A stretch of DNA of 64,000 nt from a virus. The translations under genes were made by a program, and so were the position numbers. The stretch spans positions 1 to 64,000 of the IMG/VR virus record IMGVR_UViG_3300035698_010358. One strand, 5' to 3'. How positions within the stretch are numbered: the stretch's first letter is position 1; each line of letters begins with the position of its first letter. This document shows positions 8,468 through 25,348 of this stretch, piece by piece. The notes under the pieces were generated by a model that saw only the letters and a program-made list of their open reading frames with translations, was not told the origin of the DNA and searched no databases.

Positions 8468-8812
8468 ATGAATTATAAAGAAATGCAAAAGAAGGCTAAT
8501 GAGAACCCTGAGCTTCGGGCTAAGTTGGTCCCTCTGTTGAAAAAAACAGCTCAAAGCAAGAATTTTCAACATGCTCAGAAAATCCTAAAGCTCATAAAAG
8601 AACTGACGAGTGTAGGTCAGGAATTTTCTAATTCCTGGGGTGCTATTGAGAATTCCTGGGGTGATTTTGACCATCACGATGAAGATTATAAAGAATTTTT
8701 AGATGCTGTTTCTAAAGGGTATCCTGCATCAGCGGCTAAGTTTTCCGGAGGTTCTTCTCAATTAAAAAAATGGGGACAGAGAGCCGAAGCAGCTTTACGG
8801 AAAATTAAATAA
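8468..8812 (+). CDS. Small protein with the ANENPELR leader signature
   Basis: A 114-residue basic protein starting MNYKEMQKKANENPELR. Residues ~8-25 match a signature also present in the genes at 22680, 24309 and 24766. The remainder (Lys-rich helix, then Trp/Asp/His-containing middle and basic C-terminus) is unique. A strong GGAGGG ribosome binding site precedes it. I infer a family of small proteins with a shared N-terminal targeting or docking segment; the function of the body is unknown. Confidence 0.7.
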   Translation: MNYKEMQKKANENPELRAKLVPLLKKTAQSKNFQHAQKILKLIKELTSVGQEFSNSWGAIENSWGDFDHHDEDYKEFLDAVSKGYPASAAKFSGGSSQLKKWGQRAEAALRKIK

Positions 8813-8875
8813 AACCTGCCTGGTAATTATTGGGTATAGTCCAAACTGTTCAATCAACGTCAGGACAGTTTCATA

Positions 8876-9109
8876 ATGGACGTACTGGTTATCAAAAATA
8901 TTGAAGATGTTGCTATTTCCCCTAAAGCTAATGCCTTCCGAGTGTTGGATGATGGCAATGGGGTGAGCTGTTTCTTAGATTTTCTAGTATATAAACCAGA
9001 AAAAAACAAGGCTTGTGTCCTATCCAGAATCCAGATAAACCGTGGGTTCCTCTCAGTAATTCGAGATAGATTGGATATATCCCTGAAAGAAATAACTGAG
9101 GAGAGTTAA
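8876..9109 (+). CDS. Small phage protein, paralogue of the gene at 18318
   Basis: A 77-residue protein. Its core (AFRVLDD...CFLDFLVY...ACVLSRIQI...FLSVIRDRL...LKEI) aligns with residues ~20-75 of the protein at 18318 (AFRIITL...LLDFMSI...ASVVARIRV...FMASIRDRL...LEEI). The pattern suggests four beta strands and a C-terminal helix. The ribosome binding site is weak. The family is unnamed to me; its use twice among structural genes suggests a small virion or assembly factor. Confidence 0.65.
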   Translation: MDVLVIKNIEDVAISPKANAFRVLDDGNGVSCFLDFLVYKPEKNKACVLSRIQINRGFLSVIRDRLDISLKEITEES

Positions 9110-9212
9110 TTTCCCACAGTCTTTTCGGGTTTCATCGGTAAGGTGTGAGAGTTGAGAGATTACATGCTATTTCAAGGTCCACACTTATTAAGGATCGTTA
9201 ACGGAGGGAAAA

Positions 9213-10316
9213 ATGGCCCAGATAGTTCACAAACGTGGAGTTTTCCGGAAATTCAGAGCACTGAGCAGTATTCACATGGGGGCCTACGAAATGGACCTCC
9301 CGGCAAACTCAGAGGTTGAATTCGATGGCGTGGTGCTGATGTGGGGGGATGAGAAATATAATCTCCCTTTATTTGCTGGGGCTATCAATGCTAAATGGGC
9401 TGTCCCTATTGAGGATAACATCAGTCGTTATATCCCTCAGCCTGCCGGTGTTGAAGTTCGACCTGCTACATCGGACGGTCCTGAACGGGGTGCCCCGATG
9501 GTAATTGGGAAATCTCCTGATGAGGAAGATGTTCTGGTCGGCACAGTCGATGGCAACAATGCTCGTCGAGAATCCATTAATCATCCTCCAGTTCCTGCTG
9601 CTTCTCAGGACTCAATGGATAGAGCTGCTTCTCTGGCCACAGCACTTCGTCAACAGGCGGCTGCTGCTGAAGCTGCTGTAAAAGTAGAAACAGGTGATGA
9701 AACTCCTGTCACGGATGTTGGTTTCGTTGATGAAGTTAATGCTGAGACAGTCTATGCAGATCCTCCAAGTGTTCAACATTCGGATGACGATGATCCGGCA
9801 CCTGTCGTGATTCAATCCAAGACGTTTGATGACACCCCGAAGGTTACCCATAATGGGATGGAGATTATCTCCGAAGACCAGCAAGCTGTTCCTGTTGCCA
9901 CCATCGGTGATAGGAGTTCGGCTGCCGTCGGTTCTAATGCTTTGTCAAAGAATCGTACTGTCCTGTCGGATGCTTCTCAGGCAGCAACGGCTGTTAGAAT
10001 GGCAGAGGCCACAAAGCCTATCAGAACCATCAAGAAACCTGCTCCCATAGCTCAACCTACTCCCATAGCTCAACCTGCTCCCGTAGCTCAACCAGCTCCC
10101 GTAGCTCAACCAGCTCCCGTAGCAAAAACGGCTGCTGATGCCCCGGCTAAGAAAATCAAATGGAGCCGTAGTGGGATGAAACCCACAGAACGAGCCGTGG
10201 CTGCTGTAAGCAAGTACGGTTCTGATGAGAAAGCTCTGAAACAGATTATGAAACAAGAAACTGATCAGGTACGTCGACTGATCCGTAGAGAGCGGAAGAC
10301 CCAACAACGGGGTTAA
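9213..10316 (+). CDS. Structural-type protein with Pro/Ala/Gln repeat and basic C-terminal domain
   Basis: A 367-residue protein. Residues 1-75 form a compact beta-rich domain (VFRKFRALSSIHMGAYEMDLP). The middle is low-complexity and acidic. Residues ~276-305 are a PAPIAQ/PAPVAQ repeat, and the last ~60 residues are basic and helical (KPTERAVAAVSKYG...RRLIRRERK). The start has a GGAGGG ribosome binding site. The domain-linker-basic-tail layout suits a virion protein that bridges two partners or nucleic acid, but this is inference. No known family is recognised. Confidence 0.7.
   Translation: MAQIVHKRGVFRKFRALSSIHMGAYEMDLPANSEVEFDGVVLMWGDEKYNLPLFAGAINAKWAVPIEDNISRYIPQPAGVEVRPATSDGPERGAPMVIGKSPDEEDVLVGTVDGNNARRESINHPPVPAASQDSMDRAASLATALRQQAAAAEAAVKVETGDETPVTDVGFVDEVNAETVYADPPSVQHSDDDDPAPVVIQSKTFDDTPKVTHNGMEIISEDQQAVPVATIGDRSSAAVGSNALSKNRTVLSDASQAATAVRMAEATKPIRTIKKPAPIAQPTPIAQPAPVAQPAPVAQPAPVAKTAADAPAKKIKWSRSGMKPTERAVAAVSKYGSDEKALKQIMKQETDQVRRLIRRERKTQQRG
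10038..10127 (+). repeat. 18-bp tandem repeat, five units
   Basis: Five consecutive degenerate copies of CCTGCTCCCATAGCTCAA encode PAPIAQ/PAPVAQ. It is an extended Pro-rich linker, likely variable in copy number among relatives. Confidence 0.85.
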
Positions 10317-10349
10317 AACCTTTTTATGTGTCGGTTATCTTTCAATGAT

Positions 10350-10389
10350 AAACCTCTGTTGGGAACATAATGTTTCCTAATGGAGGTTT
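10350..10389 (+). promoter_or_regulatory. Hairpin containing the ribosome binding site of the next gene
   Basis: A long stem (AAACCTC.../...GAGGTTT with G-U pairs and one bulge, about 18 pairs) and TAA loop. The 3' arm contains the GGAGG ribosome binding site nine bases before the GTG at 10396 and is followed by five Ts. It may act as a terminator for upstream transcripts and also hide the ribosome binding site. The same layout occurs at 33191 and 40455. Confidence 0.6.
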
Positions 10390-10395
10390 TTCATT

Positions 10396-11070
10396 GTGAG
10401 ACAAAGTAAAAAAGCCAGTAGTCAAGCAGCATGGGCACTCCTAATGGGAGGTGTTGCACACGCCCGAGTAGATGCCCATCGTCTGAAACACCTGATAAAT
10501 CGAGCATTTCGTTTGGTGGAGGCTTCTGATGAAAAAGAACATATTTACCAAGTGGCCGGGGATATCATCGTAGGTATTCCTAAAAGGCTCGAACATTTAG
10601 AGATTGATTTGGACAGGACTGGTCTGGCATTATCTAAAATGGGTGCTGATTTTCTTTCTGCCCGATTACCTTTATCAGACAAAGTAATGGTGGATGAAGC
10701 TGTAGAAGCAGCTTTTGGACGACCTACTCCAAAGGACTCAGACGTAGCAAGATTGGCCAAGAGGTTCATGTTAGCTGTCATTAAAGAAAAATGGCCAAAG
10801 GCTCCCGGAGCAATTAAGGATGTTTTGGCCAAGTTAGATGAGTCTGGGGCCAAGTATAAGAAAATCTCTGATTGGTATCGGTGGGAATTTTCAGGTGATT
10901 ACAGTTACATTGCCTATCACCCCAAACGAGCCAAGCTCCTGAATATAAGTGGGGGTCAAGGGTCGAAGGCTTATACCTGGTTTGCCCGTAATAATTCCCA
11001 CAGATTCTCTGTGCAACCTATGGATGGTGGCACGGATGGCCCCTCCAATTGGCAGTGTAAACTGAAATGA
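10396..11070 (+). CDS. Conserved-type phage protein of unknown function
   Basis: A 224-residue protein with a GTG start chosen by its GGAGG ribosome binding site. The N-terminal half is helical and well ordered (HARVDAHRLKHLINRAFRLVE, then a 'YQVAGDIIVGIPKRLEHLE' helix pair and 'ALSKMGADFLSARLPLSD'). The C-terminal third (~150-224) looks beta-rich with many aromatics (WYRWEFSGDYSYIAYHP). Its stop overlaps the next start by four bases. I do not know its role; the context is accessory genes within the structural cluster. Confidence 0.75.
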   Translation: MRQSKKASSQAAWALLMGGVAHARVDAHRLKHLINRAFRLVEASDEKEHIYQVAGDIIVGIPKRLEHLEIDLDRTGLALSKMGADFLSARLPLSDKVMVDEAVEAAFGRPTPKDSDVARLAKRFMLAVIKEKWPKAPGAIKDVLAKLDESGAKYKKISDWYRWEFSGDYSYIAYHPKRAKLLNISGGQGSKAYTWFARNNSHRFSVQPMDGGTDGPSNWQCKLK

Positions 11071-12635
11071 GACGAAAAAGCTACAGCAGACCCACACAGG
11101 AATTACCCGGAGCTCAGACGTTTGTTCGTCCTGATACGGGTGATAAAAATAAGGATGTCAAACAGATTCTTCCTTCCCCTCCGTGGTCTCGTAGTAAACC
11201 AGCCCCACCTCTCGGATTTGGTAAGCCTGCTCCAGGGAATCAGAACTATAAGATTCCAAATAAACCTGGTGAAGATTCCCCTATTCCAAACCCTGCTCCA
11301 AGTACTACGGTTCATCGCCGCCCTGAAGTGAATTCAGCAGTGACTCGCCCCGGCCCACCTTCGGCTCTTAAACGGCAAAAAGATCAACGGGGCCAAGCCA
11401 AGATGTACCACAGAAAGTATTACAGGGGAAACAAAGGGAAAATTAAGCATCGGATGAAAATCTGGTATAATAAATGGAAGAACAAGTTTAATTATAAAAA
11501 AGACCAAGAGAAACGTCGAAAAAACCCTCAACGGTTTGAAAGAAAACCTGGTGGGGGGATTCAAGAGAATAAGAATAGGGCTGAACGTGATAGAAATAAG
11601 AATGCTGCGATGATGAATCTTCCAGCAGCTCGTTTAGTCAGTCTCGTAACTGGTCAGTATGGAATGATGTTAGGGGCCGACCCTGACACAGGTTACATCC
11701 TGTTGTATCTGGATAATCATGAAACAGTCGAAGTTCCTTTGGAAGTTTTCCTAGATGATTTTGTTATGTTATCAGAAGAAGATATTGAAACAGCTATGGA
11801 AAATCTTGATGCTGCTTTTGATATGGATGAAGAATCTGAGGCCGTTGATCGGATAGCTGCTCGGTATGCTGATTTTTTATATGAGAAACGTCCTCCTCAG
11901 ATGGATCCTGACACAACATATGATCGGGGTTCCGAACGGCAGAAGGATGATCCTCCCCCACCTGCACCGGGTCGAACACCTAATACTTATGTGTGGGACA
12001 ATCCAGGGTCAGCCAAGGTTATCCCTGACAACCGTGATTTTATTAATAATAAGGCTGCTATCAAAGTAGCGGCCAAGATTGCTGACATTCAGGATGCTTG
12101 CAGTTCTGAGTTACGTTCGAAAGCTGGGGGTGTGGAGATTCGTTTGGCTCGGGTAGATAATAAGAATGCAATGTGGTCATTCGATGCTACCGGGTCTGGT
12201 GGGAAGAAATATCGGATAAAGATTAAAGCTATTCCTAAAAAGGGAAATATTCGGGATATGAAGAAGGCTGACATCCTTGTTTCATGTTCCTGTCCGTATT
12301 GGCAATGGCAGGGTCCTGAGTATTATGCTAGGCAAGAAGGGTATCTCCTGGGTAAACCCCGAGGGACAGCTTCTAAACCTGACGTAAAAGACCCTCACAG
12401 CCACCACAAGGCGTGTAAGCATATTTTGGCATGTCTTGATAGGGTGGCAGGTTACACAGTGCCTGTGAAGCTGGGGAGAGCCAAGAAGACTGCTTCTGCA
12501 CTTCAGTATCTGGCTGATATTGTTTCTCAGGGAAAGATTATTGTTGTTTCTCGTGATCAAATGGAGTTAGAGTTGTTCGTTCGTCGGTATGGTTTGAAGA
12601 AGGCTTTTACAGGAGGAAACCATGCCAATTTATGA
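11067..12635 (+). CDS. SWIM zinc-finger protein
   Basis: A 522-residue protein. The first ~100 residues are Pro-rich. Residues ~110-185 are very basic (RKYYRGNKGKIKHR, NPQRFERK) and could bind nucleic acid. The middle (~190-275) is an acidic helical domain. The C-terminal part carries a SWIM-type metal site: CSCPYWQWQG (~407-416) and, ~40 residues later, HKACKHILA, matching CxCx(n)CxH. SWIM domains mediate DNA or protein binding. A virion protein that contacts DNA or a head scaffold partner is possible. It overlaps its neighbours on both sides. Confidence 0.75.
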   Translation: MRRKSYSRPTQELPGAQTFVRPDTGDKNKDVKQILPSPPWSRSKPAPPLGFGKPAPGNQNYKIPNKPGEDSPIPNPAPSTTVHRRPEVNSAVTRPGPPSALKRQKDQRGQAKMYHRKYYRGNKGKIKHRMKIWYNKWKNKFNYKKDQEKRRKNPQRFERKPGGGIQENKNRAERDRNKNAAMMNLPAARLVSLVTGQYGMMLGADPDTGYILLYLDNHETVEVPLEVFLDDFVMLSEEDIETAMENLDAAFDMDEESEAVDRIAARYADFLYEKRPPQMDPDTTYDRGSERQKDDPPPPAPGRTPNTYVWDNPGSAKVIPDNRDFINNKAAIKVAAKIADIQDACSSELRSKAGGVEIRLARVDNKNAMWSFDATGSGGKKYRIKIKAIPKKGNIRDMKKADILVSCSCPYWQWQGPEYYARQEGYLLGKPRGTASKPDVKDPHSHHKACKHILACLDRVAGYTVPVKLGRAKKTASALQYLADIVSQGKIIVVSRDQMELELFVRRYGLKKAFTGGNHANL

Positions 12636-13011
12636 ATTTAGATGTTGTGATGAGAAATGTTTGGAAGAGTTCGAGATGATTTTAACCTTTGACGAGTATA
12701 GAAACCCCCAAGTTTGCCCTGTTTGCGGAAAGTCTTCCAAAAAGCTGGTGTCCTTGGGTGATTTTATCCTGAAGGGGGATGGATGGTACGGAAAAGCCCA
12801 GAGAATTAAAGGGCAGATGAAAAAGAAGAACGAACGTATTCTGGAACGTCAGAAAGATAGATATCACGGGACTGGTCCATGCTTACAACCGAATGTAGGT
12901 GGGGAACATGTTGATTCATGGAAAGATGCTCAAAAACTTGCTGCCGATAAGGGGAAGGTTTCTGAGACCTATCAGCCTATGGTAGAAAAAGAAAAAAGAG
13001 GTGCCGTATGA
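12622..13011 (+). CDS. FmdB-type zinc ribbon protein
   Basis: A 129-residue protein that begins with the FmdB-family pattern MPIYEFRC, with Cys at 8/9 and 13 and a CPVCGKS pair at ~33-36 forming a zinc ribbon. A basic helix (KKKNERILERQKDRYHG) follows. Its start lies 14 bases inside the preceding gene behind an AGGAGG ribosome binding site. FmdB ribbons are often annotated as regulators but are poorly characterised; in phages they commonly sit among structural genes. A second copy lies at 34464. Confidence 0.75.
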   Translation: MPIYEFRCCDEKCLEEFEMILTFDEYRNPQVCPVCGKSSKKLVSLGDFILKGDGWYGKAQRIKGQMKKKNERILERQKDRYHGTGPCLQPNVGGEHVDSWKDAQKLAADKGKVSETYQPMVEKEKRGAV

Positions 13012-13868
13012 GCAATTATGGACCATTTGATGCCCGTATCGGCATCTTGGAGCGTACACCACATTTCGTTGATTTAATTACTCGGAACAAACCGGGTGTG
13101 ACTCAATACCGTCTTTGGGGTGCTCGTAACATCAATGATGTTTACGGGGATTTAACTGATAGTGGTGTTGGTGGTACTGGCCCAACATTGATGATGACAG
13201 CCAATTTTGCAGGGCAGCGTGTTCAGAGTCCTGAGCTTGTCCGTCGTAGGGCTGGGATGGTTGAGGAAAGCCGTAAAGGCCAGACTTCTTTCCAGTTTGA
13301 CATCGTTGATTTCCTGGCTCCGGGGGTCCCTCAACCATTTGGTTCGGATGAGGAACCTGTATTTGTCCGTTTGCAGGAGTTCAGGCAGGCAACAGGATTA
13401 TGGCAATCTGTTCCAATAGGAGCACCTATCAATCCAGGTGTGCCAATCCTCGGACCCGCTCTGGTAGTTCCCGGATCAAGACAAAACAAAGCAATTTCTA
13501 CTGAAGTTATGGGTATTGCCCCAGCAGCCACGGGTTGCATGGAGATGTATCCCCCGAACTTTGATGAGACACTTCAGCAACCCATCCCGATGCATTTTGT
13601 GTTCCCTCGGCCTGTGGACAATATTATTATTCGTAATGATGCTGAAGACGAAGATACATGGCTTTTGGTGTCCTACGGCATTGGCCAGCATATGTTTGCT
13701 ATTCCGGGTGGTAGGGGCAACCAAAGTACCGTGGCTTATGATTCGGCTCAAGGTAGCATTCATGAAATGATTGTGGCTTGTGATACCCCGGTTCCACCAA
13801 GTTCTATTGGTGCTGACCCAGGGTGTCCATTTACGGTAGTCGTTGTTTCACCCAGTTGGAGGATGTAA
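13008..13868 (+). CDS. Virion structural protein of unknown type
   Basis: A 286-residue beta-rich protein without low-complexity regions (residues 'VTQYRLWGARNINDVYGD', 'QSTVAYDSAQGS', hydrophobic C-terminus 'PFTVVVVSPSWRM'). It overlaps the FmdB-type gene by four bases. The sequence resembles a capsid or collar surface protein in composition, but no motif allows naming. The structural assignment is inferred from neighbours and composition. Confidence 0.65.
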   Translation: MSNYGPFDARIGILERTPHFVDLITRNKPGVTQYRLWGARNINDVYGDLTDSGVGGTGPTLMMTANFAGQRVQSPELVRRRAGMVEESRKGQTSFQFDIVDFLAPGVPQPFGSDEEPVFVRLQEFRQATGLWQSVPIGAPINPGVPILGPALVVPGSRQNKAISTEVMGIAPAATGCMEMYPPNFDETLQQPIPMHFVFPRPVDNIIIRNDAEDEDTWLLVSYGIGQHMFAIPGGRGNQSTVAYDSAQGSIHEMIVACDTPVPPSSIGADPGCPFTVVVVSPSWRM

Positions 13869-13871
13869 ACA

Positions 13872-14201
13872 GTGGCAAAAAAAGAGAACCGCTGGCCTCC
13901 TATGATTAGCCCTCCTGGTTGGTTGATTGAGTCGGAGATGAACGGGCAGGGGTTAATGATTAAGGATTTGGTTACTCATACCGGTGTGTCACATGATGAA
14001 ATACAGAGGATATTTTCAGGTGTCACAGAAATCACTCCAGAATTTGCTGAAAGTGTTGAAGGCATGTTAAGTATTGGTAAGTCTTTACTTTTAAGACTGG
14101 TGGATGATTATAAAGGTTATTTGGGGTTCCGTGAGTGGGAAACTAACCAAGAGTCAATAAGACTATTACCCTGTTTGAAAATGTTTATGAACCTCATATA
14201 A
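13872..14201 (+). CDS. HigA-like helix-turn-helix protein
   Basis: A 109-residue protein with a GTG start and GGAGG ribosome binding site. Residues ~10-75 follow the HigA/XRE layout: 'SPPGWLIESEMNGQGLMIKDLV...GVSHDEIQRIFSGVTEITPEFAESVEGML'. The family represses toxin genes or acts as a DNA-binding regulator. No HigB-like toxin flanks it, so it is probably a solitary regulator or co-opted DNA-binding protein. It sits alone between two structural blocks and is followed by a 128-base gap. Confidence 0.7.
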   Translation: MAKKENRWPPMISPPGWLIESEMNGQGLMIKDLVTHTGVSHDEIQRIFSGVTEITPEFAESVEGMLSIGKSLLLRLVDDYKGYLGFREWETNQESIRLLPCLKMFMNLI

Positions 14202-14273
14202 TGCTGGCTTTCATCCTTTCATAACCAAACTATTGAAGCAACTCCTAGTTTAATAAACCCCTACAGTTAAGTG

Positions 14274-14292
14274 AGCAGGAATTTGTCCTGCT
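14274..14292 (+). other. Small hairpin in the gap before the triple-paralogue operon
   Basis: AGCAGGA / TCCTGCT with a five-base loop, 37 bases before the start at 14330. It lacks a T run, so it is more likely a 5' leader structure than a terminator. Confidence 0.4.
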
Positions 14293-14329
14293 TGTTCGGA
14301 TTAATTTCTTTCGAGACGGAGGTTAAAAC

Positions 14330-15511
14330 ATGCCTTATATCTGTCTAACAAGAAGTGACATCCCGGACGGAACATTGCAGATTTTAGATTTGATACCTAA
14401 CGCATCCCAACGGCACCCAGGTTATGACCCCCCTGCCCAGACGCGTTATATAAATCGAGTCCAAAATGAAGCTATTGCTCTTGTCAACGGGGTGTCCTAC
14501 GGGGTAAAAAATGGGCTGGCTGCCTATATCCTGGACAGAGTCGAGCCGGGCGGACTACAAGTTGGGTCGGCTGAAGTGGATTTGGATGCTCCTGGAGCAG
14601 TCCTAGCTACTGACACTATCACCATTGGTGGAGTTGTTTTCACAGCTACGGATGGGTTGTATGACCCTGCATTACAGGAATTCTATTCTGATGTGGGTGG
14701 TGGTTCTGACGAAACAGTCATGGCCAATTCACTTATTGATGCTGTAAACGACCCTGCAACTCAGGCATTGCTCCTGGCAGCGGGTTCTACTGTTACAGCA
14801 TCTGCTGGTGCTTCATTAGGTGCTGGACAAGTCACTCTGACAGCCGATACGGCTGGTGCAACTGGAGGATTAACTCTGGCTGAAAGCACTGCCGGGTTAC
14901 GGATTGACATTTCAAATGATCATCTGGCTCGAACTTTTGAGGCTTTTACAGCCCGACAGCTTGCCAACATTACCGAACGAATCATTATTCGTTTGGATGC
15001 AGCTTCTGCTCTGACGGCTACTGATGTCAATACTGCAATCAATGCTGAGGGTGGTGTTTCTGGTTGTTCGATTGCCAGTGTTGGAACTCTGGGTTCTCTG
15101 GTGGAAATGCTTTCAATCCTGGCTGGCCGTGGATACAGACTTCCTGACTTGGCTTCCGTCTACACAGGGGCAACTTATGACATCTGGCATAGTGCAGCAG
15201 CCGGAGGTTTTGACATCTCCCGTTTGGTGAATGACACCAATATGGTAGCTGGTGAGCTTACCCCAACAAACATTGGTGGTGACAGTGCTCAGGTTCCGGT
15301 GAAAGGTATCACAAATACTTTCCACAGTTCAGCTTTAGACATTTCCCTTCTGGAAGGTGATCTGTCAAAGATGGGCTCAGGACTCACACTCTGGCCGGAT
15401 AGTGACCCTATCCCCCATTTCCCGTGGACGTACCAGAAGGGTACTTCTTATGCTCAAACAACCGCCCGTGTCGTCACAGTCTATGATGATGACGGCACAG
15501 TTCTCGTCTAA
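14330..15511 (+). CDS. Structural protein, paralogue 1 of 3, with an inserted beta-rich domain
   Basis: A 393-residue protein. The shared framework is an N-terminal 'TRSDIPDGTLQILDLIPNASQ' segment, an 'AAYILDRVEPGG' helix, a '...GSLVEMLSILAGRGYRLPD' block and a C-terminal 'VTVYDDDGTVLV'. These match the next two genes. Unlike them it carries an extra ~110-residue insertion (~80-195, 'TDTITIGGVVFTATDG') of the kind seen as Ig-like or adhesin-like inserts in phage structural proteins. Strong ribosome binding site. A repeated virion surface or head-tail component is inferred. Confidence 0.7.
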   Translation: MPYICLTRSDIPDGTLQILDLIPNASQRHPGYDPPAQTRYINRVQNEAIALVNGVSYGVKNGLAAYILDRVEPGGLQVGSAEVDLDAPGAVLATDTITIGGVVFTATDGLYDPALQEFYSDVGGGSDETVMANSLIDAVNDPATQALLLAAGSTVTASAGASLGAGQVTLTADTAGATGGLTLAESTAGLRIDISNDHLARTFEAFTARQLANITERIIIRLDAASALTATDVNTAINAEGGVSGCSIASVGTLGSLVEMLSILAGRGYRLPDLASVYTGATYDIWHSAAAGGFDISRLVNDTNMVAGELTPTNIGGDSAQVPVKGITNTFHSSALDISLLEGDLSKMGSGLTLWPDSDPIPHFPWTYQKGTSYAQTTARVVTVYDDDGTVLV

Positions 15512-15525
15512 AGGAGGGATTTACT

Positions 15526-16332
15526 ATGGCTTATGCGTACATCGTATTGAACCGTAACGACATTGCAGACAACCTTCTGCAAGTGTTTGACATCAAACCC
15601 AACACTAGCCAGCTCGGCATTTATGATGCTGCTTGGGCTAGCCAGGGTGGTCAAACTGGGTATTTAACGTGGCTGTCCCAACACGATGTTGTGGCTACCA
15701 CAGCTGGAGCTGCTGCCATTGAAGTCACTGATGCTGCATACAAAGGGCTGAATGCTTACCTGATTGATAACGTTGAAAACGTTCAGGATGGTAACTTGGC
15801 TCTGACCGACACTCTGGCTATTGCAGTTGGGGATCTTATCCGTGACCGTTTATCGGCAGGTGGAACTCTGACTCTGGCCATCCTCAACACCATTATCAAC
15901 AATACCATCGGTGGGGCAGCCAGCTCTGACCTCGATGGTACAGCAGCAGCCTCCTACTCGACTGGGACGGTTGAGGAAGTCCTCCGTGTTCTGGCCGGTG
16001 AGGTTTACCGTGTCCCAGCAGGAGCTCAGGTTGGTAATGCTGCCAATGCTTTCCCTGGTCATGGTACAACCCACGTCAGGCTTGGTGGCTATGTGGCTAC
16101 TACGGACAGTGAATTCCGTCACGTTCGTAAGTTTGCTAACACAGGTGCCCTGAACCTGTCGTGTTTGTCGGGCAACATGTCCAAGATTAAAGCGGCCACC
16201 TACTCCTTCGTGAACCCTCTGTTCACCTATGGGGCAGCAGGCACAGCTTTGACATTGGATGGAACCCATATCCCAGCAACCGGAGTTGCAGCAGCTGTTG
16301 CAGTCTACGAAAATGACGGCGAACTGCTGTAA
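15526..16332 (+). CDS. Structural protein, paralogue 2 of 3
   Basis: A 268-residue protein starting MAYAYIVLNRNDI, matching its neighbours at 'LLQVFDIKPNTSQ', 'LNAYLIDNVENV', 'SSDLDGTAAASYSTGTVEEVLRVLAG' (read in parts) and the C-terminal 'AVYENDGELL'. AAGGAGG ribosome binding site 14 bases after the previous gene. It is the shortest of the three and probably closest to the core fold. Function unknown; three tandem copies suggest related parts of one virion assembly with different partners. Confidence 0.7.
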   Translation: MAYAYIVLNRNDIADNLLQVFDIKPNTSQLGIYDAAWASQGGQTGYLTWLSQHDVVATTAGAAAIEVTDAAYKGLNAYLIDNVENVQDGNLALTDTLAIAVGDLIRDRLSAGGTLTLAILNTIINNTIGGAASSDLDGTAAASYSTGTVEEVLRVLAGEVYRVPAGAQVGNAANAFPGHGTTHVRLGGYVATTDSEFRHVRKFANTGALNLSCLSGNMSKIKAATYSFVNPLFTYGAAGTALTLDGTHIPATGVAAAVAVYENDGELL

Positions 16333-16344
16333 GGAGGTAATTTC

Positions 16345-18028: not shown

Positions 18029-18030
18029 AA

Positions 18031-18327
18031 ATGCTGTGGGTTTTGTTTCTTTTAGCCGTGTATGGCATCGTGTTCCTGCTCAGGCATAAATGGGAGCTGG
18101 GGTTTCTTCGTGGCTTCGAGTTCTTTGAGAGGCTATTGGACTGTGCCTTCTGTTTAGGTTTCTGGGTTGGAGGTCTAGTATGGACGGTCATTCAGACATT
18201 TTCCGACCTCATCATGGACACTAATAGTTGGATTGGGTTCTTTTTCTTCGGGATTATGTGGTCCTTTGCTTCAGCAGCGTTCTGTTACAACGTGGATAGA
18301 ATCGTGGAGGATTCAGAATGGATATGA
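18031..18327 (+). CDS. Membrane protein with a CxxCLGFW motif
   Basis: A 98-residue hydrophobic protein. ATG at 18031 is preferred over the upstream TTG because AAGGTGG lies six bases upstream and it avoids overlap. It has an N-terminal hydrophobic segment (LWVLFLLAVYGIVFLL), a middle segment with 'LDCAFCLGFWVGGLVW', and a third (FFFFGIMWSFASAAF), so two to three membrane spans. The 'C-F-C-L-G-F-W' motif resembles DUF1360-type membrane proteins. It probably acts in the host membrane; lysis, superinfection exclusion or assembly roles cannot be distinguished. Confidence 0.7.
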   Translation: MLWVLFLLAVYGIVFLLRHKWELGFLRGFEFFERLLDCAFCLGFWVGGLVWTVIQTFSDLIMDTNSWIGFFFFGIMWSFASAAFCYNVDRIVEDSEWI

Positions 18328-18686
18328 GGATAGATTGCCAAGTAGACGTACCTATAGAGGTTCAAGGTGGTAATTTTGCTGATGCCTTTCGGATCATCAC
18401 TTTAAAAAATGATGAGTGTCTTTTGGATTTCATGTCCATCTCACAATGCCGTACCAAAGCATCTGTTGTGGCCAGAATCCGTGTAGAGAATAAATTCATG
18501 GCTTCTATTAGGGATCGATTGGAATCAACCCTGGAAGAAATAGATGGTAAGCATTACGGTACTCTGACACCAAAACAAGTTGAAGAGATGTGGTTTTTAG
18601 TAGACCAGTTTCCGATAGATGATGACCAGGAAGAAGGAGCATTACCATTAGCTTGGTATGTAACCCCTTCAGAAAAGGTAGATTAA
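18318..18686 (+). CDS. Paralogue of the 8876 protein with a C-terminal extension
   Basis: A 122-residue protein starting inside the end of the membrane protein gene with GGAGG seven bases upstream. Residues ~20-75 (DAFRIITL...LLDFMSI...ASVVARIRV...MASIRDRLESTLEEI) align with most of the 77-residue protein at 8876. Residues ~76-122 are an acidic extension absent there. It is immediately followed by the fractured gene, so it may be an assembly partner; function unknown. Confidence 0.65.
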   Translation: MDMRIDCQVDVPIEVQGGNFADAFRIITLKNDECLLDFMSISQCRTKASVVARIRVENKFMASIRDRLESTLEEIDGKHYGTLTPKQVEEMWFLVDQFPIDDDQEEGALPLAWYVTPSEKVD

Positions 18687-18687
18687 G

Positions 18688-19188
18688 ATGTCAGTTGCAT
18701 TTGTTCCTGGAGAAACGATAGGGCGGGGGGATCTGGACATTTTCTTGCAGAGTGCTCAAGGTAACCCTGCAAATGCAGCAGAGATTTATTACACCCTCTA
18801 TTACGTATCCCCCGGACCCCCCGAATCTGAAGTTCAGGTTGGACAACCCCAACGAATACCAGTGAATCCAGCCGTCGGGGAGTATTATGCTTCTCTAATG
18901 GTTCCAGCAGGCTCAACCCCTGGGACGTATAGGATTCGGTGGACGTTCCGAGAATTGGTGAATTCTCCCCAGCAGCAAGTTGTTCAAGAATTTGCTGTTG
19001 TCACTGCAGCAGGGATAGCATTGGTTCCTGGATATGACCCGTATCAAACAGCAATGATGAATAGTCTTAGAATGCTTCTCAGAGATCAGTGTGTTGGTGA
19101 GGAGGTGAAAGTCGAAGTAGATGCCGACGGGGAACTTCTGGTTGTGTCTATGAAGGACTTATGGGAGGCTTTGAAAGATGAAGTCTAG
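18688..19188 (+). CDS. Fractured virion gene, piece 1: N-extein plus IntN of split intein 1
   Basis: A 166-residue product. Residues 1-134 are the N-terminal extein: an Ig-like beta domain (~1-100) followed by a helical start ending 'MLLRDQ'. From Cys135 (base 19090) the sequence changes to an intein block A pattern, CVGEEVKVEV, and stops after only 32 intein residues. The missing intein blocks B, F and G are at the start of the piece at 20085, where the extein resumes with Cys. Known atypically split inteins also have short N-halves. The product should ligate by trans-splicing to piece 2. The host protein is unnamed; position and C-terminal pieces indicate a connector/neck or other virion protein. 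Confidence 0.85.
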   Translation: MSVAFVPGETIGRGDLDIFLQSAQGNPANAAEIYYTLYYVSPGPPESEVQVGQPQRIPVNPAVGEYYASLMVPAGSTPGTYRIRWTFRELVNSPQQQVVQEFAVVTAAGIALVPGYDPYQTAMMNSLRMLLRDQCVGEEVKVEVDADGELLVVSMKDLWEALKDEV

Positions 19189-20101
19189 CCAACCACATGT
19201 AAAACTAGTACCCTTGTTAGAGAAATATAATATTTCTTGGGGTTTATTTTGTAAAAAAGGTCGTTTGCCTAATGACTTGAAGTGGGTAAAAGAGAAACGT
19301 GTGTTTATCATTACAGAATTACACTCTCAAGGCACCTCCTGGGCCAATATGGTATTTATTACGGGTTTGTCTCAAGGTTCTATTCAGCGTTTAACTAAAG
19401 CTATGTGGAACCAAGCATCACGGGACAAATTGAATAAAATAGGTGAGAAGGTTGGGAAATCATGGAAAGGTAAAAAACGTCTAGGGCAATTAGAAAAACA
19501 ATGGAAAAATGGCGTTTTTGATTTTCATCGAGGACGGAAAAGACCGGAGTGGGAAAAAGAAAAATTACGTGCTTCATGGACACCTGAATTAAGGGCACAA
19601 GTATCGGAAGAACGGTTAAAACGGTGGCAAGACCCGGAATACCGAAAAAACCTTTTAGATTACCACAGAAGTCCTGAAGTTAGGGCTGAGAGGTCTAAAT
19701 TACAAACAGAACGGATACTGGCTGATCCTGTGAAATGGACAAAGGGTCGGGGTGCTTATGTTGAGGCTCTAAAAGAAAAACGAGAGGTTGTGTGGACACG
19801 GAGTTCATATGAACGAAGAGCTCTCTTAGTATTAGATAGTGATCCTAATGTGGTTTCTTATGAGTATGAACCACGGATAGAGTTGTCTGATGGTTTTTGG
19901 ATAGTTCCTGATTTTTTAGTGTTCTTTAAAGATGGGTCTCAAACTCTTTTAGAAATAAAAGCCTCTTGGGTATACGGTCTTCCAGAGGGCCATAAAATTC
20001 ACATTAGATTAGAGAAATCTAAAAAGTTAGCTTGTGATAGAGGTTGGGGTTTTTCTATATGGACTGAGAAAGATAGGTTGGAAGATGTTAAGTGTGCATA
20101 A
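19178..20101 (+). CDS. Free-standing putative homing endonuclease, PD-(D/E)XK type, inside split intein 1
   Basis: A 307-residue basic protein encoded between the two halves of split intein 1, overlapping piece 1 by 11 bases and piece 2 by 17. An N-terminal HTH-like region (~40-75) and repeats of the NUMOD3 kind (RWQDPEYRKNLLD, HRSPEVRAERS, ~145-180) suggest DNA binding. The C-terminal ~100 residues contain 'SYERRAL', 'VPDFLVFF' (~242-249) and 'LLEIKAS' (~256-262), the Asp...Glu-x-Lys arrangement of PD-(D/E)XK nucleases. Inferred to cut intein-less alleles and spread the split intein. It is AT-richer and Lys-richer than the exteins, consistent with foreign origin. Confidence 0.75.
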   Translation: MKSSQPHVKLVPLLEKYNISWGLFCKKGRLPNDLKWVKEKRVFIITELHSQGTSWANMVFITGLSQGSIQRLTKAMWNQASRDKLNKIGEKVGKSWKGKKRLGQLEKQWKNGVFDFHRGRKRPEWEKEKLRASWTPELRAQVSEERLKRWQDPEYRKNLLDYHRSPEVRAERSKLQTERILADPVKWTKGRGAYVEALKEKREVVWTRSSYERRALLVLDSDPNVVSYEYEPRIELSDGFWIVPDFLVFFKDGSQTLLEIKASWVYGLPEGHKIHIRLEKSKKLACDRGWGFSIWTEKDRLEDVKCA

Positions 20102-20849
20102 CAAATTGGTTCAGGCTTTTCGTGCAGGGAAACTGAAAACCCGATCTGTATCCCCTGAAGGAAAATTGGAGTGGAAACCCATAACGGATGTTCATAGGGC
20201 TGAAGTTCCTTGGGAAGAGATTATACAGGTTGGCACAGATCAAGGACATACTTATCTGACTAAAGGGCACAGGGTTTTTGTATCCCCTACTGCAAAACGG
20301 GAAACTGGGGATTTAATAAAAGGTGATGGGGTTCTAGGTGTAGATTTACAGGATAATGTATTTCATCCTGTAATAGTGTCTACAGATACTGTACCATCAC
20401 GTAAATATATGTATGATATGACTGTTGCAGACTGGCATAATTTTGTTTTGTTCGATTCTCGGATTGTTATTAGTAATTGCCCTGATAAATTCTACCATTT
20501 CCGACCACCAGAGTATGAAGGTGACATTGGCCAATACAATCGAATATTCGGACAGATTTGGGAAGATGCTGAACTTCTGGAATATCTGTTGAGATCTTTG
20601 GATTGGTTCAACATGTTCCCTCCCCTGACACAGAAAATCAATACTCTCACACGTTTGGTTCAAGATATGCCCTCGTGGAGGACAGCGATCCTTTGGGGCG
20701 CAATTACCCATGCCTGTTTTGCACTTTCAATAAATTGGGTTGCTGACGAATTTTCTGTTAGGGGTGACCAGGAAGTGACCGTTATAACAAAAACAGGGAA
20801 AAAGGTTACGTTGTCTATTCAGGAGTTGTATGAAATATGCAAGGGATGA
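20085..20849 (+). CDS. Fractured virion gene, piece 2: IntC of intein 1, middle extein, IntN of intein 2
   Basis: A 254-residue product with three parts. Residues 1-131 are intein 1 C-part: a block B-like 'YLTKGHRVFV', block F 'YDMTVADWHNF' and block G 'RIVISN' directly before Cys (base 20478). Residues 132-223 are the middle extein, starting CPDKFYHFRPPEYEG and ending 'INWVADEF'. Residues 224-254 begin SVRGDQEVTV (base 20754), block A of a second intein, and stop. ATG 20085 is chosen for the upstream TTGGAAG. The penultimate intein residue is Ser rather than the usual His. This protein must splice at both ends. Confidence 0.85.
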   Translation: MLSVHNKLVQAFRAGKLKTRSVSPEGKLEWKPITDVHRAEVPWEEIIQVGTDQGHTYLTKGHRVFVSPTAKRETGDLIKGDGVLGVDLQDNVFHPVIVSTDTVPSRKYMYDMTVADWHNFVLFDSRIVISNCPDKFYHFRPPEYEGDIGQYNRIFGQIWEDAELLEYLLRSLDWFNMFPPLTQKINTLTRLVQDMPSWRTAILWGAITHACFALSINWVADEFSVRGDQEVTVITKTGKKVTLSIQELYEICKG

Positions 20850-21787
20850 TAACAAAACGACAAATTTTGTTGAAATACGGGTTCAATGACAAGACTTTCC
20901 GAAAGATGATGTCCGAGGGGGTTGTCAGCCCTGATTATATTCAACAAGGTAAAAGAAAAACCTTATTTTTTAAAGAGGGCTCTTTGAGGTTTGTTGAAAA
21001 CCTTCACTATGTTATTTGTTTAGAGTGTGGAAAATGGATGAGTCAGATCACCACGAAGCATTTAAAAAGCTGTAGTGGAATGGTATTGCAGGATTACAAG
21101 GAAAAGTACCCTAAAGTTCTATTGATCTGTTATAGGACTAATGGTAACCATGTAAAAACAGAAGAACAAAAGCAAAGACAGTCAGATGTTTTAAAGGCAC
21201 GTTTCCAAACGGAAGAAGGGCAGAAAACCCGAGAAGTTATTTGCCAAGCATCTATTCGTTTAATGAAAGGCCCGTATCGTAAACAAGCTGCAAAACACCT
21301 AAAGGATTTGAATCAGACTACCAAGATGAAGGAATTTCATCGGGGGCATACCAAGAAAAGATGGGAAGATGGCGGGGATCTTCGGTATCTTATCCCAAAA
21401 TGGCATCTGGATAATAAGGATTATTCAAATCAATTGGCCGCAAATGCTCGTAGGTTTATAAAGAAAATTTCAAAGCCGCACATTAGGTTAAAAGTTTTAT
21501 TGGAAGCTGCTGGTATCCCAACAGTTACGGAATATGAAGTCGGTTACTATGCCATTGATGAAGCAATTCCAGGGAAAAAGATATCCATTGAGATGCATGG
21601 TTGTTATTGGCATAGTTGTCCTGTTTGTGGGTTGGAAGGTCCTTCCCTGAATAAAAGGATTGACAAGTCTAAAGCTACTTATCTGAAAAATAGGGGTTGG
21701 GAACTTGTAGTGATTTGGGAACATGAGTTGAAAAATAATCCTGAAATGTGTATTGATCGGGTGAAGGAGGTTGTAATAGGATGTTGA
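20837..21787 (+). CDS. Free-standing putative homing endonuclease, Vsr-like, inside split intein 2
   Basis: A 316-residue protein between the halves of split intein 2, overlapping piece 2 by 13 bases (4 if translation starts at ATG 20846) and piece 3 by 7. N-terminal region: HTH-like 'MITKRQILLKYGFNDKTFRKMM', then a ROS/MucR-like zinc finger 'CLECGKWMSQITTKHLKSC' (~60-80). C-terminal region: 'ISIEMHGCYWHSCPVCG' and 'NRGWELVVIWEHEL' (~247-297), the layout of very-short-patch-repair (Vsr) nucleases. Vsr-like (EDxHD) homing nucleases are the family reported with fractured genes and split inteins. Inferred to mobilise intein 2. Confidence 0.8.
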   Translation: MQGMITKRQILLKYGFNDKTFRKMMSEGVVSPDYIQQGKRKTLFFKEGSLRFVENLHYVICLECGKWMSQITTKHLKSCSGMVLQDYKEKYPKVLLICYRTNGNHVKTEEQKQRQSDVLKARFQTEEGQKTREVICQASIRLMKGPYRKQAAKHLKDLNQTTKMKEFHRGHTKKRWEDGGDLRYLIPKWHLDNKDYSNQLAANARRFIKKISKPHIRLKVLLEAAGIPTVTEYEVGYYAIDEAIPGKKISIEMHGCYWHSCPVCGLEGPSLNKRIDKSKATYLKNRGWELVVIWEHELKNNPEMCIDRVKEVVIGC

Positions 21788-22467
21788 CTGATGCTTTAAA
21801 AAGAGAGATTAAGGAATCCTTTGAAGAGGGTTCCCTGAAAGTCCTTAGCGTGAACCCAGATTCTTTAGAGCCCTCTTTAGAATCGGTTACTGATGTTATG
21901 AGGCATCTTACTCCTCATAAAACAATTTTGGATGTTGAGACCTCACAGGGGCATACTGTTACGACTGAAGATCACAGTTTGTTCATGGAGGATATGTCTA
22001 CGGTACCAACTTCTGAGTTGCAGGTGGGGGGTTGTATTGCTTGTATTCAGAACGGGGTCTATCAACCGACCCCTATTCTGGGCATTTCGGAAACGTTGAG
22101 GGAACAATATACTTATGATTTATCTGTCCCTTCATTTGAGAATTTTGTCTTGTCCAATGGAGTGGTTGCACATAACTCATATAGCATAGGGGGAGTGTCC
22201 TTAGATATCGATAAATCTGCCAAATATGAGTCCTTAAAGCAGAATGCTGAGGGACAACTGACTTTGGCCACCGAGGCCAAGCAACGGACAGTGAAATTCA
22301 TTCGTGGGCTACAGCAGCCCAGATTCGGGATGGGTGTTAGGTCGAGTTTTGGCCCGTTTGTGGGGAAAGGTATACTTAGCCCTCGTAATTTCGTGGCTTG
22401 GGCTTCTGTTATATTAGTACCAGCTTTGATGTTTGTTAGTTCTGCTAACAGTTCAGGTTTGGTCTAG
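21781..22467 (+). CDS. Fractured virion gene, piece 3: IntC of intein 2 plus C-extein
   Basis: A 228-residue product. Residues 1-132 are intein 2 C-part: 'TVTTEDHSLFM' (block B, T-x-x-H), 'YDLSVPSFENF' (block F, with Glu where His is common) and 'GVVAHN' (block G) directly before Ser (base 22177). Residues 133-228 are the last extein, beginning SYSIGGVSLDID, with 'RSSFGPFVGKGILSPRNFVAW' (read in parts) and a hydrophobic C-terminus. ATG 21781 follows AAGGAGG. After two trans-splicing events the exteins (134+92+96) give one 322-residue protein with junctions LLRDQ/CPDKF and VADEF/SYSIG. Confidence 0.85.
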   Translation: MLTDALKREIKESFEEGSLKVLSVNPDSLEPSLESVTDVMRHLTPHKTILDVETSQGHTVTTEDHSLFMEDMSTVPTSELQVGGCIACIQNGVYQPTPILGISETLREQYTYDLSVPSFENFVLSNGVVAHNSYSIGGVSLDIDKSAKYESLKQNAEGQLTLATEAKQRTVKFIRGLQQPRFGMGVRSSFGPFVGKGILSPRNFVAWASVILVPALMFVSSANSSGLV

Positions 22468-22648
22468 GTGTATGTTTGATAGAAGTTTAGAATTACGTAT
22501 TGGGGGTAATGTTCTTAATTAACTGTTGTATTTTTTGTATGCGTTGGTTAATATCTGTGTTTATTTCAGAAATAAGAAGCCTGAGATCACGGTTAATAGG
22601 ATTCAAAGGTTCCTTGGTATTCGGTAAGGTAGTTATAATTACCTTATT

Positions 22649-22659
22649 AGTATTGAAGG
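22649..22659 (+). promoter_or_regulatory. Candidate phage promoter element (AGTATTGAAGG)
   Basis: It lies 20-30 bases before the ATG at 22680, downstream of GGTTCCTTGGTAT and of a dyad (TAAGGTA / TTACCTTA, about 22624-22645). It resembles the elements at 6656, 17365 and 25507. It is in the 212-base gap after the fractured gene, in which I see no gene. Confidence 0.35.
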
Positions 22660-22679
22660 ATTTTTTAAGGAGATAGAAA

Positions 22680-23477
22680 ATGGATAAAGCATCTTTTACT
22701 TTTAATGAGAACTGGTTTTTCCCAGATCCTCCTGCTCGGATTGAGAATCTTCTTTATATGGCACAGAAAGTTGACCCTAGTGCTCATGTGGACGATTCTC
22801 AATACCAAAATAAAGTGGTGGTAGATAAGAAAAAGGCACCAGCCTTAATTAAGGTATTCGAATCCAAAGGAATGTTTGTGTCTGAAGAGAAACGTGGGGC
22901 CTACAAGGTGTTGTGGGGTAAAAAGCGGGCAAACGAGAGTCAGGGTTTACGTGGCCATGTAGAGAAATTAGCCAATGAGAACCCAGAGTTAAGGGGGCAT
23001 CTGGTTCCTTTGTTGAAACAGGCTGCAACACAAAAGTTTAATCCTGAGATGATCTCAAAAGCTAAGAAGCTCCTAAATACTATGAAAAATTATGGTTGGC
23101 AGTGGGGTGATGACAATCTGAAAGAAGTTTCTCGTAATGGGGAGTTTTATTTTTCACAGATGAGTCCTCATAATGCTCCTTGGGATGATGAAGAGGATTT
23201 CAAAACATATGTCCCTCCTTTTCGGGCAGGGCAGCTTTTTCGGAAATATAAAGTGGAGGACCACGCTGGATTGGTAGCAGTTCTTCATAAATTGCAGGAA
23301 CAGTGGAAGAAGGATTCCTTTAAGTTTTCGAGGGTTGTAGGTAAAATTACCCCAAAGGATGCTGATGTTAAGTTATTGTTTAACCCTGACCGTCAAGGTA
23401 CACTTTTTGCACAGGTATATGTGAATGCCCAGCCTTACCTAGAGTGGACAAGTCATCGTGCTAAAGAGGAGAAGTGA
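22680..23477 (+). CDS. Accessory protein with an internal ANENPELR signature
   Basis: A 265-residue protein with an AAGGAGATAG ribosome binding site. Residues 1-85 are a small alpha/beta domain (FTFNENWFFPDPPARIENLL). Residues ~93-118 hold the signature (VEKLANENPELRGHLVPLL) that is N-terminal in the genes at 8468, 24309 and 24766. Residues 120-265 are unrelated and Trp/Asp-rich. The internal signature suggests fusion of a separate small domain in front of a signature protein. Codon usage is more AT-rich than in the structural genes. Function unknown. Confidence 0.7.
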   Translation: MDKASFTFNENWFFPDPPARIENLLYMAQKVDPSAHVDDSQYQNKVVVDKKKAPALIKVFESKGMFVSEEKRGAYKVLWGKKRANESQGLRGHVEKLANENPELRGHLVPLLKQAATQKFNPEMISKAKKLLNTMKNYGWQWGDDNLKEVSRNGEFYFSQMSPHNAPWDDEEDFKTYVPPFRAGQLFRKYKVEDHAGLVAVLHKLQEQWKKDSFKFSRVVGKITPKDADVKLLFNPDRQGTLFAQVYVNAQPYLEWTSHRAKEEK

Positions 23478-23660
23478 TGTTGGAATGGTTTCAAAAATTG
23501 TTTATAGAAAAACCCCCCTGAGCCTCTACCCCTCAAGTATCGGGATTTAGGTAATAACGAGGTTGAAGTGTCTTGTGGTGACCGTAAAACTACAGCTATT
23601 TATTTTTCAGAGGCTGCTGTGGAATATATTGAAGCAGCTAAGAAAAGGATATTGTCATAA
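23477..23660 (+). pseudogene. Small gene interrupted by a one-base shift at a C6 run, or +1 programmed frameshift
   Basis: Starts at ATG 23477 (overlapping the previous stop). It reads 14 codons ending in Pro-Pro then TGA at the C-run 23513-23518. Skipping one base there gives a coherent continuation (PEPLPLKYRDLGNNEVEV...EAAVEYIEAAKKRILS) to TAA at 23660, where the next gene starts. Either one extra C arose by mutation or sequencing error, or ribosomes shift +1 at CCC-CCC-TGA; slippery CCC-U before a stop is a known +1 context. The intact product would be ~60 residues, function unknown. Confidence 0.55.
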
Positions 23661-24019
23661 TGTGGTGGGTATACGTCATACAATCTCAAGAAGTTCGGAC
23701 AGGTAAAAACGGTAAGATCTTACCTGGGTTCCATTACGTGGGATGCACAACTGACCCTGCTCGTCGTATAAGACAACACAACGGCTTGTTGACCGGCGGA
23801 GGGAAGTACACCAGTAAACATCGTCCGTGGGTGCCACGAGCTCTCTACGGCCCCTACAATGGACGATCTAATGCAATGAAGGCCGAGTATGCCCTAAAGC
23901 ACGGGAAACGCAGCACAGCTCGAACACGGTGGTCTGTAGAGGATTCTCCTTGGTGTCGAGGTAAAGGGTCAAACGACCCGTGGATTACTGACGGTATTTC
24001 CCCTATTGAGGACTCTTAA
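23660..24019 (+). CDS. GIY-YIG nuclease domain protein
   Basis: A 119-residue protein. Motifs of the GIY-YIG superfamily are in order: 'WWVYVIQS' (first Tyr), 'FHYVGCTTDPARRIRQHNG' (second Tyr and catalytic Arg) and 'KAEYALKHG' (catalytic Glu). The fold ends near residue 90 with a short Trp/Pro tail. Single-domain GIY-YIG proteins occur as repair-like nucleases and as homing endonucleases. With no intron visible nearby, a stand-alone nuclease (host DNA degradation, mobile gene or repair) is the best description. Confidence 0.8.
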   Translation: MWWVYVIQSQEVRTGKNGKILPGFHYVGCTTDPARRIRQHNGLLTGGGKYTSKHRPWVPRALYGPYNGRSNAMKAEYALKHGKRSTARTRWSVEDSPWCRGKGSNDPWITDGISPIEDS

Positions 24020-24046
24020 TAGAAACATTGTTGTAGGGAGACTGTC

Positions 24047-24226
24047 ATGAATACTTATAGAATAGTTAGTTCCAAGGTAGATGCCAATTTAACTCAAAAG
24101 TTAAAGAAGTTGAAGCCCAAAGCTCGTTCCCGTGGTGATTTTACAGGTGCCGTGTTACAGGCAGCTTTCTATGCTCGGAAAGAAAATGACACTTATTTCC
24201 TTGTAAATTGTATGGTCACATGGTAG
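24047..24226 (+). CDS. Short AT-rich gene, possibly frameshifted near its end
   Basis: A 59-residue frame with a GGGAG ribosome binding site, starting MNTYRIVSSKVDANLTQ and basic in the middle. A downstream frame (to TAA 24291) reads protein-like 'YGHMVASGAGSVQDPLSRY'. One added A in the AAA at 24205-24207 would join them into an ~81-residue protein. I therefore suspect either a real frameshift or a base error. Function unknown. Confidence 0.45.
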   Translation: MNTYRIVSSKVDANLTQKLKKLKPKARSRGDFTGAVLQAAFYARKENDTYFLVNCMVTW

Positions 24227-24308
24227 CCTCTGGTGCAGGGTCGGTACAAGACCCCCTGAGTCGTTACGATGTTGTAGTTTACGTAGGTTAATCTAATAGG
24301 AGATTATA

Positions 24309-24764
24309 ATGAGTTTCCGAGATAAAATAGCCAAATTGGCCAATGAAAATCCTGATGGGGTTAGAAAGCACTTAGTCCCCATTCTGAAACAGGCTGGTAG
24401 TGGTATCTATCAAATTTTCTTTAATATGTTTAAGAAAGCCTTTAAAGAATCTTGCACTGATCTATATACTCAATTCTACCGTGATTACAGTTGGGATAAC
24501 ATTGAAGGGGTGTCTTCGAGTATCAAACCTGGGCTTTGGGAAGTAGTTTCCAAGTATGGTCCTATGGTTGCAGTTTTTTATCACGCACAACCTACAAAAC
24601 TGACTATTACTTGTAGTCTTTTAAATCTTCACCACAAAATGGAAGAAGAGAGACAGATTATTTCTCTGGAGACTTTTCTAGCCCGTGATATGACTGAGAA
24701 AGATATGCAAGCTCTTATTATGAAATTCGTTATTAGCTGTGCTAAGAAGACCTGGAGAGGATAA
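24309..24764 (+). CDS. Small protein with N-terminal ANENPDG signature
   Basis: A 151-residue protein starting MSFRDKIAKLANENPDG, then 'RKHLVPILKQAG', the same leader as at 24766 and related to 8468 and 22680. The body (~30-151) has alternating strands and helices with Tyr/Trp/Cys and no known motif. AGGAGATT ribosome binding site. It is immediately followed by the paralogous leader at 24766, so the pair arose by duplication of at least the leader. Confidence 0.7.
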   Translation: MSFRDKIAKLANENPDGVRKHLVPILKQAGSGIYQIFFNMFKKAFKESCTDLYTQFYRDYSWDNIEGVSSSIKPGLWEVVSKYGPMVAVFYHAQPTKLTITCSLLNLHHKMEEERQIISLETFLARDMTEKDMQALIMKFVISCAKKTWRG

Positions 24765-24765
24765 A

Positions 24766-25348
24766 ATGAGTTTACGAGATAAAATACAGAAATTAGCTAA
24801 CGAGAACCCTGATGGCATCAGGGAACATTTGGTTCCCCTGCTCAAGAAGGAAGCCTCAACAGATAAAGGTCTTAAACAGGCAGCTGATCCTAGCTGGTTG
24901 TCTAATGATTTTCCTAAAAAAGCATCCTGTGAGAACCCTGAGCTTCAAAAAACAGCCAGGAGAGCCCCCCGAGGCTTACATCAGGCTGGATAAAGATGCA
25001 ATTTATTGGGCTTATAGTTATTTCATAGCCCCGATGGGTTGGGTGACAGATATGGTTGAACAGCAAGCCAGCTGCCAGAAATTCCTGGAGAGAACCCTTG
25101 GGGCTCTTCAAAAAGAGTTTGGTGGTAAAAAGAAACGTCCAACCAAGATGTATTACACTCAGGATAACAACAAACGTATGGTTTTAACCGGACCTGCTCC
25201 TGGTTCTACAGCTCTTTACGACATCAATGTGGCCCAGCTCACCGTAGAGGATAACGGGGATTACAAACCCTTCGTGAAAGCCGTTCAGGATGTTTTTAAG
25301 AAAACAGGCTGGGATGTGAAGGGCATGGATGATTTGGACATCCGATGA
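24766..25348 (+). pseudogene. Frameshifted protein with ANENPDG leader
   Basis: ATG 24766 follows GGAGAGG. The first frame reads MSLRDKIQKLANENPDG, 'IREHLVPLLKKEAS' and continues to 'SCENPELQK', then ends at a stop near 24993. The next frame continues in register from the A6 run at 24947-24952 (…PGEPPEAYIRLDKDAIYWAY…) to TGA at 25348. Removing one A gives one protein of ~193 residues. Either a genuine indel, a sequence error, or +1 shifting. The leader is nearly identical to that at 24309. Function unknown. Confidence 0.65.

Follow-up and report, generated by a model that had tools for sequence, protein, structure and literature searches.

The stretch of viral DNA analysed here, which we refer to as the window, comprises positions 1 to 64,000 (64,000 nucleotides) of the IMG/VR record IMGVR_UViG_3300035698_010358, and four of its proteins share a short peptide segment of 25-30 residues (consensus xLRSKLIRLAHENPELRPHLLPLLK-E-A), which we call the tag. 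All four copies lie on the + strand: copy 1, MNYKEMQKKANENPELRAKLVPLLKKTA (8468..8551; profile expectation value (E) 9.8e-14 in the record, 34.7 bits), is N-terminal, copy 2, LRGHVEKLANENPELRGHLVPLLKQAA (22944..23027; E 7.2e-17, 40.7 bits), is internal, copy 3, MSFRDKIAKLANENPDGVRKHLVPILKQAG (24309..24398; E 3.1e-15, 36.4 bits), is N-terminal and a variant with a one-residue NPDG insertion, and copy 4, MSLRDKIQKLANENPDGIREHLVPLLKKEA (24766..24855; E 2.5e-16), is N-terminal and has the top score in the window, 44.5 bits. A first-pass annotation, made by a model from the letters alone, had described the segment at the N-terminus of the open reading frames (ORFs) at 8468, 24309 and 24766 and inside that at 22680, and all four copies are recovered at 34.7-44.5 bits, against a maximum of 10.5 bits among 60 block-shuffled windows. 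The partial extra copy that it had seen in 24766 (CENPEL) scores 4.1 bits (E ~3) and is a chance five-residue match. A profile search of the full 72,158-base record, the whole-genome search which that annotation had suggested, gave no copies beyond these four; the same motif was also found in other records.

The bodies behind the tag in the window are unrelated to each other by BLASTP, as had been supposed. The first tagged gene (8468..8812, +) encodes a protein of 114 residues and is the first gene after the major capsid gene; its body matched nothing above cut-off in Pfam and nothing convincing in PHROG, and it has no counterpart in the close relative G008. At the corresponding place, directly behind its capsid gene, G008 has a homing-endonuclease-like ORF (L130 ~3878-6671). 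The second protein (22680..23477, +; 265 residues) carries the tag as residues 90-116 between two segments, with no family match in Pfam or PHROG and no relatives in IMG/VR. The third (24309..24764, +; 151 residues) has an orthologue in G008 (G008:41533-41988) which is N-terminally tagged too, the two bodies sharing 76% identity (E 1.6e-66). In the fourth (24766..25348, +), three-frame translation shows an A6 run near 24946 in ORF 24766-24993, after which the next frame stays open as far as 25348; the gene probably encodes a single protein of ~194 residues whose reading is broken by a frame change, either a sequencing error or real. A GIY-YIG endonuclease gene (23660-24019, E 1.5e-10) directly precedes the tagged genes at 24309 and 24766.

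Head genes lie at the start of the window, all on the + strand. The prohead protease that the first-pass annotation had read from the sequence is encoded at 3393..5000 (3393-5000) and matches the head maturation protease family phrog_18299 (E 9e-15), and the major capsid protein is encoded at 7481..8353 (phrog_2522, E 1.6e-50). Between them an ORF at 4997..6559 encodes an acidic protein of 520 residues, which by its gene position is a possible scaffold or core protein and a candidate receptor for the tag. Around the protease and capsid genes of Tunturi_5 the genes are arranged similarly. We also considered the N-arm of the major capsid protein as a degenerate copy of the tag and rejected it, as there was no profile match (best -3 bits).

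Outside the window, a tblastn search of 50,697 phage records with the motif had as its sole match LR745208.1, an uncultured huge phage of 485 kb that carries 11 copies. A degenerate DNA pattern matched 20 stretches in IMG/VR and had no match in GTDB genomes (a single genome per species, ~85,000 prokaryote species in all), hence no host was assigned. With a profile built from the first copies the motif was found in 15 of 15 records searched, at 1-15 copies each. Because these records had been chosen by the motif, a second set was selected by capsid protein alone: 15 of its 21 records of at least 53 kb carried the motif, 11 of them at E < 1e-8, and none had been used in building the profile. The combined set holds 163 copies in 145 ORFs from 28 sampled records, again with 1-15 copies each. 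The phrog_2522 major capsid protein, nearly invariant among motif-carrying records, was present in 10 of the first 15, which is 10 of the 11 that are at least 49 kb long. The exception, G011 (152 kb), has the motif and no phrog_2522 capsid gene; it may be a genome fragment, and it also lacks the 1377-residue tail protein of the window, as does the capsid-bearing G004.

More distant relatives of the window capsid protein are found in Tunturi_5 (50% identity), phage G (38%), and Rctr197k and Myrna (~26%), and the profile found no convincing copy of the tag in any of these four. A de novo scan for repeated short segments, which recovered the tag in G008 as a positive control, gave nothing in Tunturi_5, and the only cluster that it gave in phage G was Cys-rich and zinc-ribbon-like. 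Because the tag is linked to the capsid, while distant capsid relatives lack it and Tunturi_5 and phage G have no comparable segment, these comparisons place it in one huge-phage lineage, with very variable copy number. Relatives of the capsid protein are encoded in 505 IMG/VR stretches, including records of 536 kb (L133) and 619 kb (L194); these make up a large lineage of huge phages, most of them uncultured, to which phage G and Tunturi_5 are related. Our literature search turned up no description of the motif, most subscription journals lying outside its reach; the tag is thus apparently undescribed in the literature searched, cargo-targeting tags as such being already known.

The tag is modular. 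By position, 117 of the 163 copies lie beside a possible start codon (some of these may be internal copies that happen to have a start codon nearby), 31 are internal and 15 are C-terminal, at most ~3 residues from the stop codon. With the tag masked, the 145 ORFs fall into ~100 body families, 83 of them singletons. One family carries the tag at the N-terminus in G011, G015, G019 and G034 and at the C-terminus in G003:135221-136051 (bodies E 3e-24). In G001:38517-39482 the tag sits between a DUF2958 domain and a second domain, and this second domain is a separate N-tagged protein in G004:115617 (61% identity). The tag therefore moves independently of the body, and since it changes both termini and bodies it does not behave as part of a catalytic domain, one of the outcomes which the first-pass annotation had named as fatal to its reading. 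Several proteins carry a tag at each end, or three tags in succession, and turnover is fast: G008 has nine tagged ORFs (at least 10 copies) where the corresponding region of the window has three.

A structure model from 107 tags predicts a helix at 3-13, a kink at NP and a helix at 15-35 (mean predicted local distance difference test score (pLDDT) 80), so that the tag would be a kinked two-helix peptide consisting of helix LRSKLIRLAH, turn NPE and helix LRPHLLPLLK. It has no sequence match in the PDB and no Foldseek match at E <= 0.001. Such a peptide, in two or three copies in several proteins, might do no more than help them to fold or pair, as a small structural or oligomerisation domain, yet it is joined to ~100 unrelated bodies and to either end of homologous ones, and in an AlphaFold model of one member of the N/C-tagged family, a model of low overall quality (mean pLDDT 54), a low-confidence stretch separates the two-helix tag from the body like a linker. 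We regard this explanation as very improbable.

Conservation of the tag is at the amino-acid level. The most conserved profile residues are L2, A10, P14, R18, P23 and L25, with R, P, A and L conserved at >=90%. Tags are more alike within genomes (identity 0.64) than between them (0.54), the difference of 0.10 exceeding the permutation maximum of 0.023, and identity at fourfold third positions is close to that expected from codon usage (G002, 0.43 vs 0.40; G005, 0.31 vs 0.31; W01, 0.48 vs 0.40). As copies are alike in protein while synonymous sites are near saturation, selection, and not mainly recent duplication, accounts for the likeness. A selfish or recombinogenic coding repeat, spread by duplication and without protein function, would also give a dispersed multicopy family with the short DNA matches seen between copies of close relatives; with strict conservation of the residues named above and third positions near expectation, we consider it extremely unlikely. 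Selection instead holds the copies to a consensus specific to each genome, the pattern to be expected of tags that all bind a single co-evolving partner.

The first-pass annotation had likened the segment to the leader which targets the internal proteins of phage T4 to its capsid. T4-type prohead proteases cut at a consensus (L/I)xE|A/G. A full T4 model, in which the tag is an N-terminal capsid targeting sequence cut by the prohead protease just behind it, would suit the encoded protease, the mostly N-terminal position of the tags and the LLKE-A or LLKE-G found in 36 copies. However, among the ~138 copies classified the residue after the tag is E in just 41 (EA or EG in 36), and not uniformly so within one genome, and 15 copies end at the stop codon. 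The cleaved-leader version is unsupported because the tag is position-independent and no uniform cleavage-type residue follows it; T4-style obligatory cleavage immediately behind the tag is thus not supported by the residues found there, and the full model seems to us improbable. What stands of the proposed T4-like logic is that small proteins of unrelated kinds share a selected, swappable tag and that the phage encodes a prohead protease; against the exact T4 model, the tag also lies internally and at the very C-terminus, and the residue behind it is not uniform.

Among the tagged bodies are an RNA ligase in G016 (E 2.4e-27), a DUF3293/S-adenosylmethionine-lyase-like protein in G031 (DUF3293/SAM-lyase-like matches at E 1.7e-7 and 2.4e-5), a GNAT in G008 with a C-terminal tag, a ParB-like nuclease (ParBc_2), DUF2958, DUF3846, DUF5710, DUF7007 and a WGR domain, and one tagged protein has a weak match to the large polyvalent protein domain LPD1. 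S-adenosylmethionine lyases act against restriction, and RNA ligases mend tRNAs that host nucleases have cut. The few multi-domain tagged proteins include the arrangements DUF2958-tag-domain and YunG-like-tag-DUF3846, most others being small or unannotated, and no structural or replication proteins were recognised among the tagged bodies, most of which are unannotated. Polyvalent effectors, which are delivered together with DNA, have GNAT and ParB-like domains among their components (PMC5512222). Several tagged bodies thus resemble anti-defence or polyvalent-protein domains, as expected of injected proteins. Tagged proteins also have other small modules in common, as read by eye: 'YLxEHPxADxxxHxV' soon after the tag in tagged proteins of L080, L101, L237 and L238, CEKLPEGGMRDNCE in those of L075, L079, L084 and L085, and GKCFYETGDEADRCYTTTNGGPGG in those of L211 and L229.

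Fusion to many unrelated accessory proteins suggests recognition by one shared phage partner, and we infer, as the simplest reading, that the tagged proteins have such a partner in common. The tag would then be a docking or sorting tag, and the reading towards which we lean slightly is that its partner belongs to the procapsid (as scaffold or core, as protease, or as inner shell), that tagged proteins are loaded into the head as it assembles, and that they enter the host with the DNA and act early on against its defences. The sequences establish a modular tag, confined to one lineage and under selection on its amino acids; packaging and injection are less certain than the shared partner, the arguments for and against being about evenly balanced. 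A bolder claim, that one huge-phage lineage uses a universal, position-independent and uncleaved cargo tag by which dozens of unrelated effectors enter the virion, so that one profile could read the injected set of uncultured giant phages straight from sequence, we advance tentatively and think somewhat more likely to fail than to hold. Alternatively, the tag may dock proteins made after infection, and not packaged, to another intracellular partner such as a replication compartment, a transcription hub or a chaperone. Modularity and a genome-specific consensus suit any shared receptor, and tagged genes are dispersed over genomes of up to 536 kb and not confined to the head module, which keeps an intracellular docking role in contention. 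Indirectly, the fact that the tag follows one capsid lineage and that the functions of several bodies would be most useful at DNA entry speak against this alternative, which we judge unlikely, though a good deal less so than the full T4 model.

Several observations weigh against the reading that we favour. Tagged genes were not significantly enriched beside the capsid gene (combined p = 0.15), residues behind the tag are mixed even within one genome, and most bodies have no recognisable function. In several genomes third positions are slightly more alike than expected, and some duplication may have contributed to the within-genome likeness. G031 (619 kb) has one or two copies only, so tag use varies; phage G, Tunturi_5 and Myrna do without the tag, therefore the capsid fold alone does not require it; and for this lineage we found neither virion proteomics nor cultured members.

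A T4-like function is nevertheless plausible. The T4 internal proteins are diverse defence proteins with only a capsid targeting sequence in common (PMC3012670), and that sequence (IPI-IPIII, Alt) resembles the tag in being a short conserved segment on diverse accessory proteins in a phage with a prohead protease (PMC3012670, PMC12373910); the bodies here likewise suggest anti-defence roles. Unlike the T4 sequence, the tag is longer, predicted to form two helices, without visible sequence relation to it, associated with an unrelated capsid family and no more than a candidate packaging signal, and, where the T4 sequence is strictly N-terminal, it is also internal (31/163) and C-terminal (15/163), with no uniform cleavage site. 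The encapsulation peptides of bacterial microcompartments are short helical cargo-loading peptides, linker-fused to unrelated core proteins (PMC12339742), and the tag is predicted to be helical as well; it differs from those peptides in belonging to a phage lineage, not to microcompartments, and its partner is only inferred. SPN3US and phiKZ are giant phages too, with head and ejection proteins whose N-terminal propeptides are processed by the prohead protease (PMC10052503); in the accessible part of that source these are mostly 111-254 residues long (two are 20-24) and not described as one motif family, whereas the tag is one position-independent family. Polyvalent proteins, encoded by phages and conjugative elements, are effectors of several domains that accompany the DNA on delivery; GNAT and ParB-like domains occur in them (PMC5512222) and in tagged proteins, one of which has the weak LPD1 match, yet polyvalent proteins are defined by domain mosaics, while here a common tag is borne mostly by small proteins.

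The proteins that giant phages inject at entry are mostly unknown, and virion proteomics of cultured phages is needed to find them. Should the tag indeed mark packaged cargo, candidates for injected effectors could be listed directly from metagenomes with a profile of 30 residues (~100 families in the 28 records here, nearly all of unknown function), which would be a ready candidate set for anti-defence screens, and large capsids could be filled with proteins of choice by means of a tag that works at either terminus. With a destination other than the head, a docking tag common to many unrelated phage proteins would still be a new handle on their biology.

Two further features of the window lie apart from the tagged genes. 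At 18688-22467 one gene is apparently interrupted at two points by split-intein-like pieces, between which lie free-standing endonuclease ORFs: an Intein_splicing match lies in 21781-22467 (E 2.8e-12) and a weak one in 20034-20849, N-intein-like tails are seen by eye, and the endonuclease-like ORFs are 19178-20101 (TnsA-like, weak) and 20837-21787 (REase_MTES_1575, below cut-off). Such 'fractured gene' arrangements with split inteins are known from phage metagenomes. Finally, the gene at 43283-45787 encodes a phage protein with VIT (E 3e-14) and VWA (E 2.9e-15) domains, a combination unusual for a phage.

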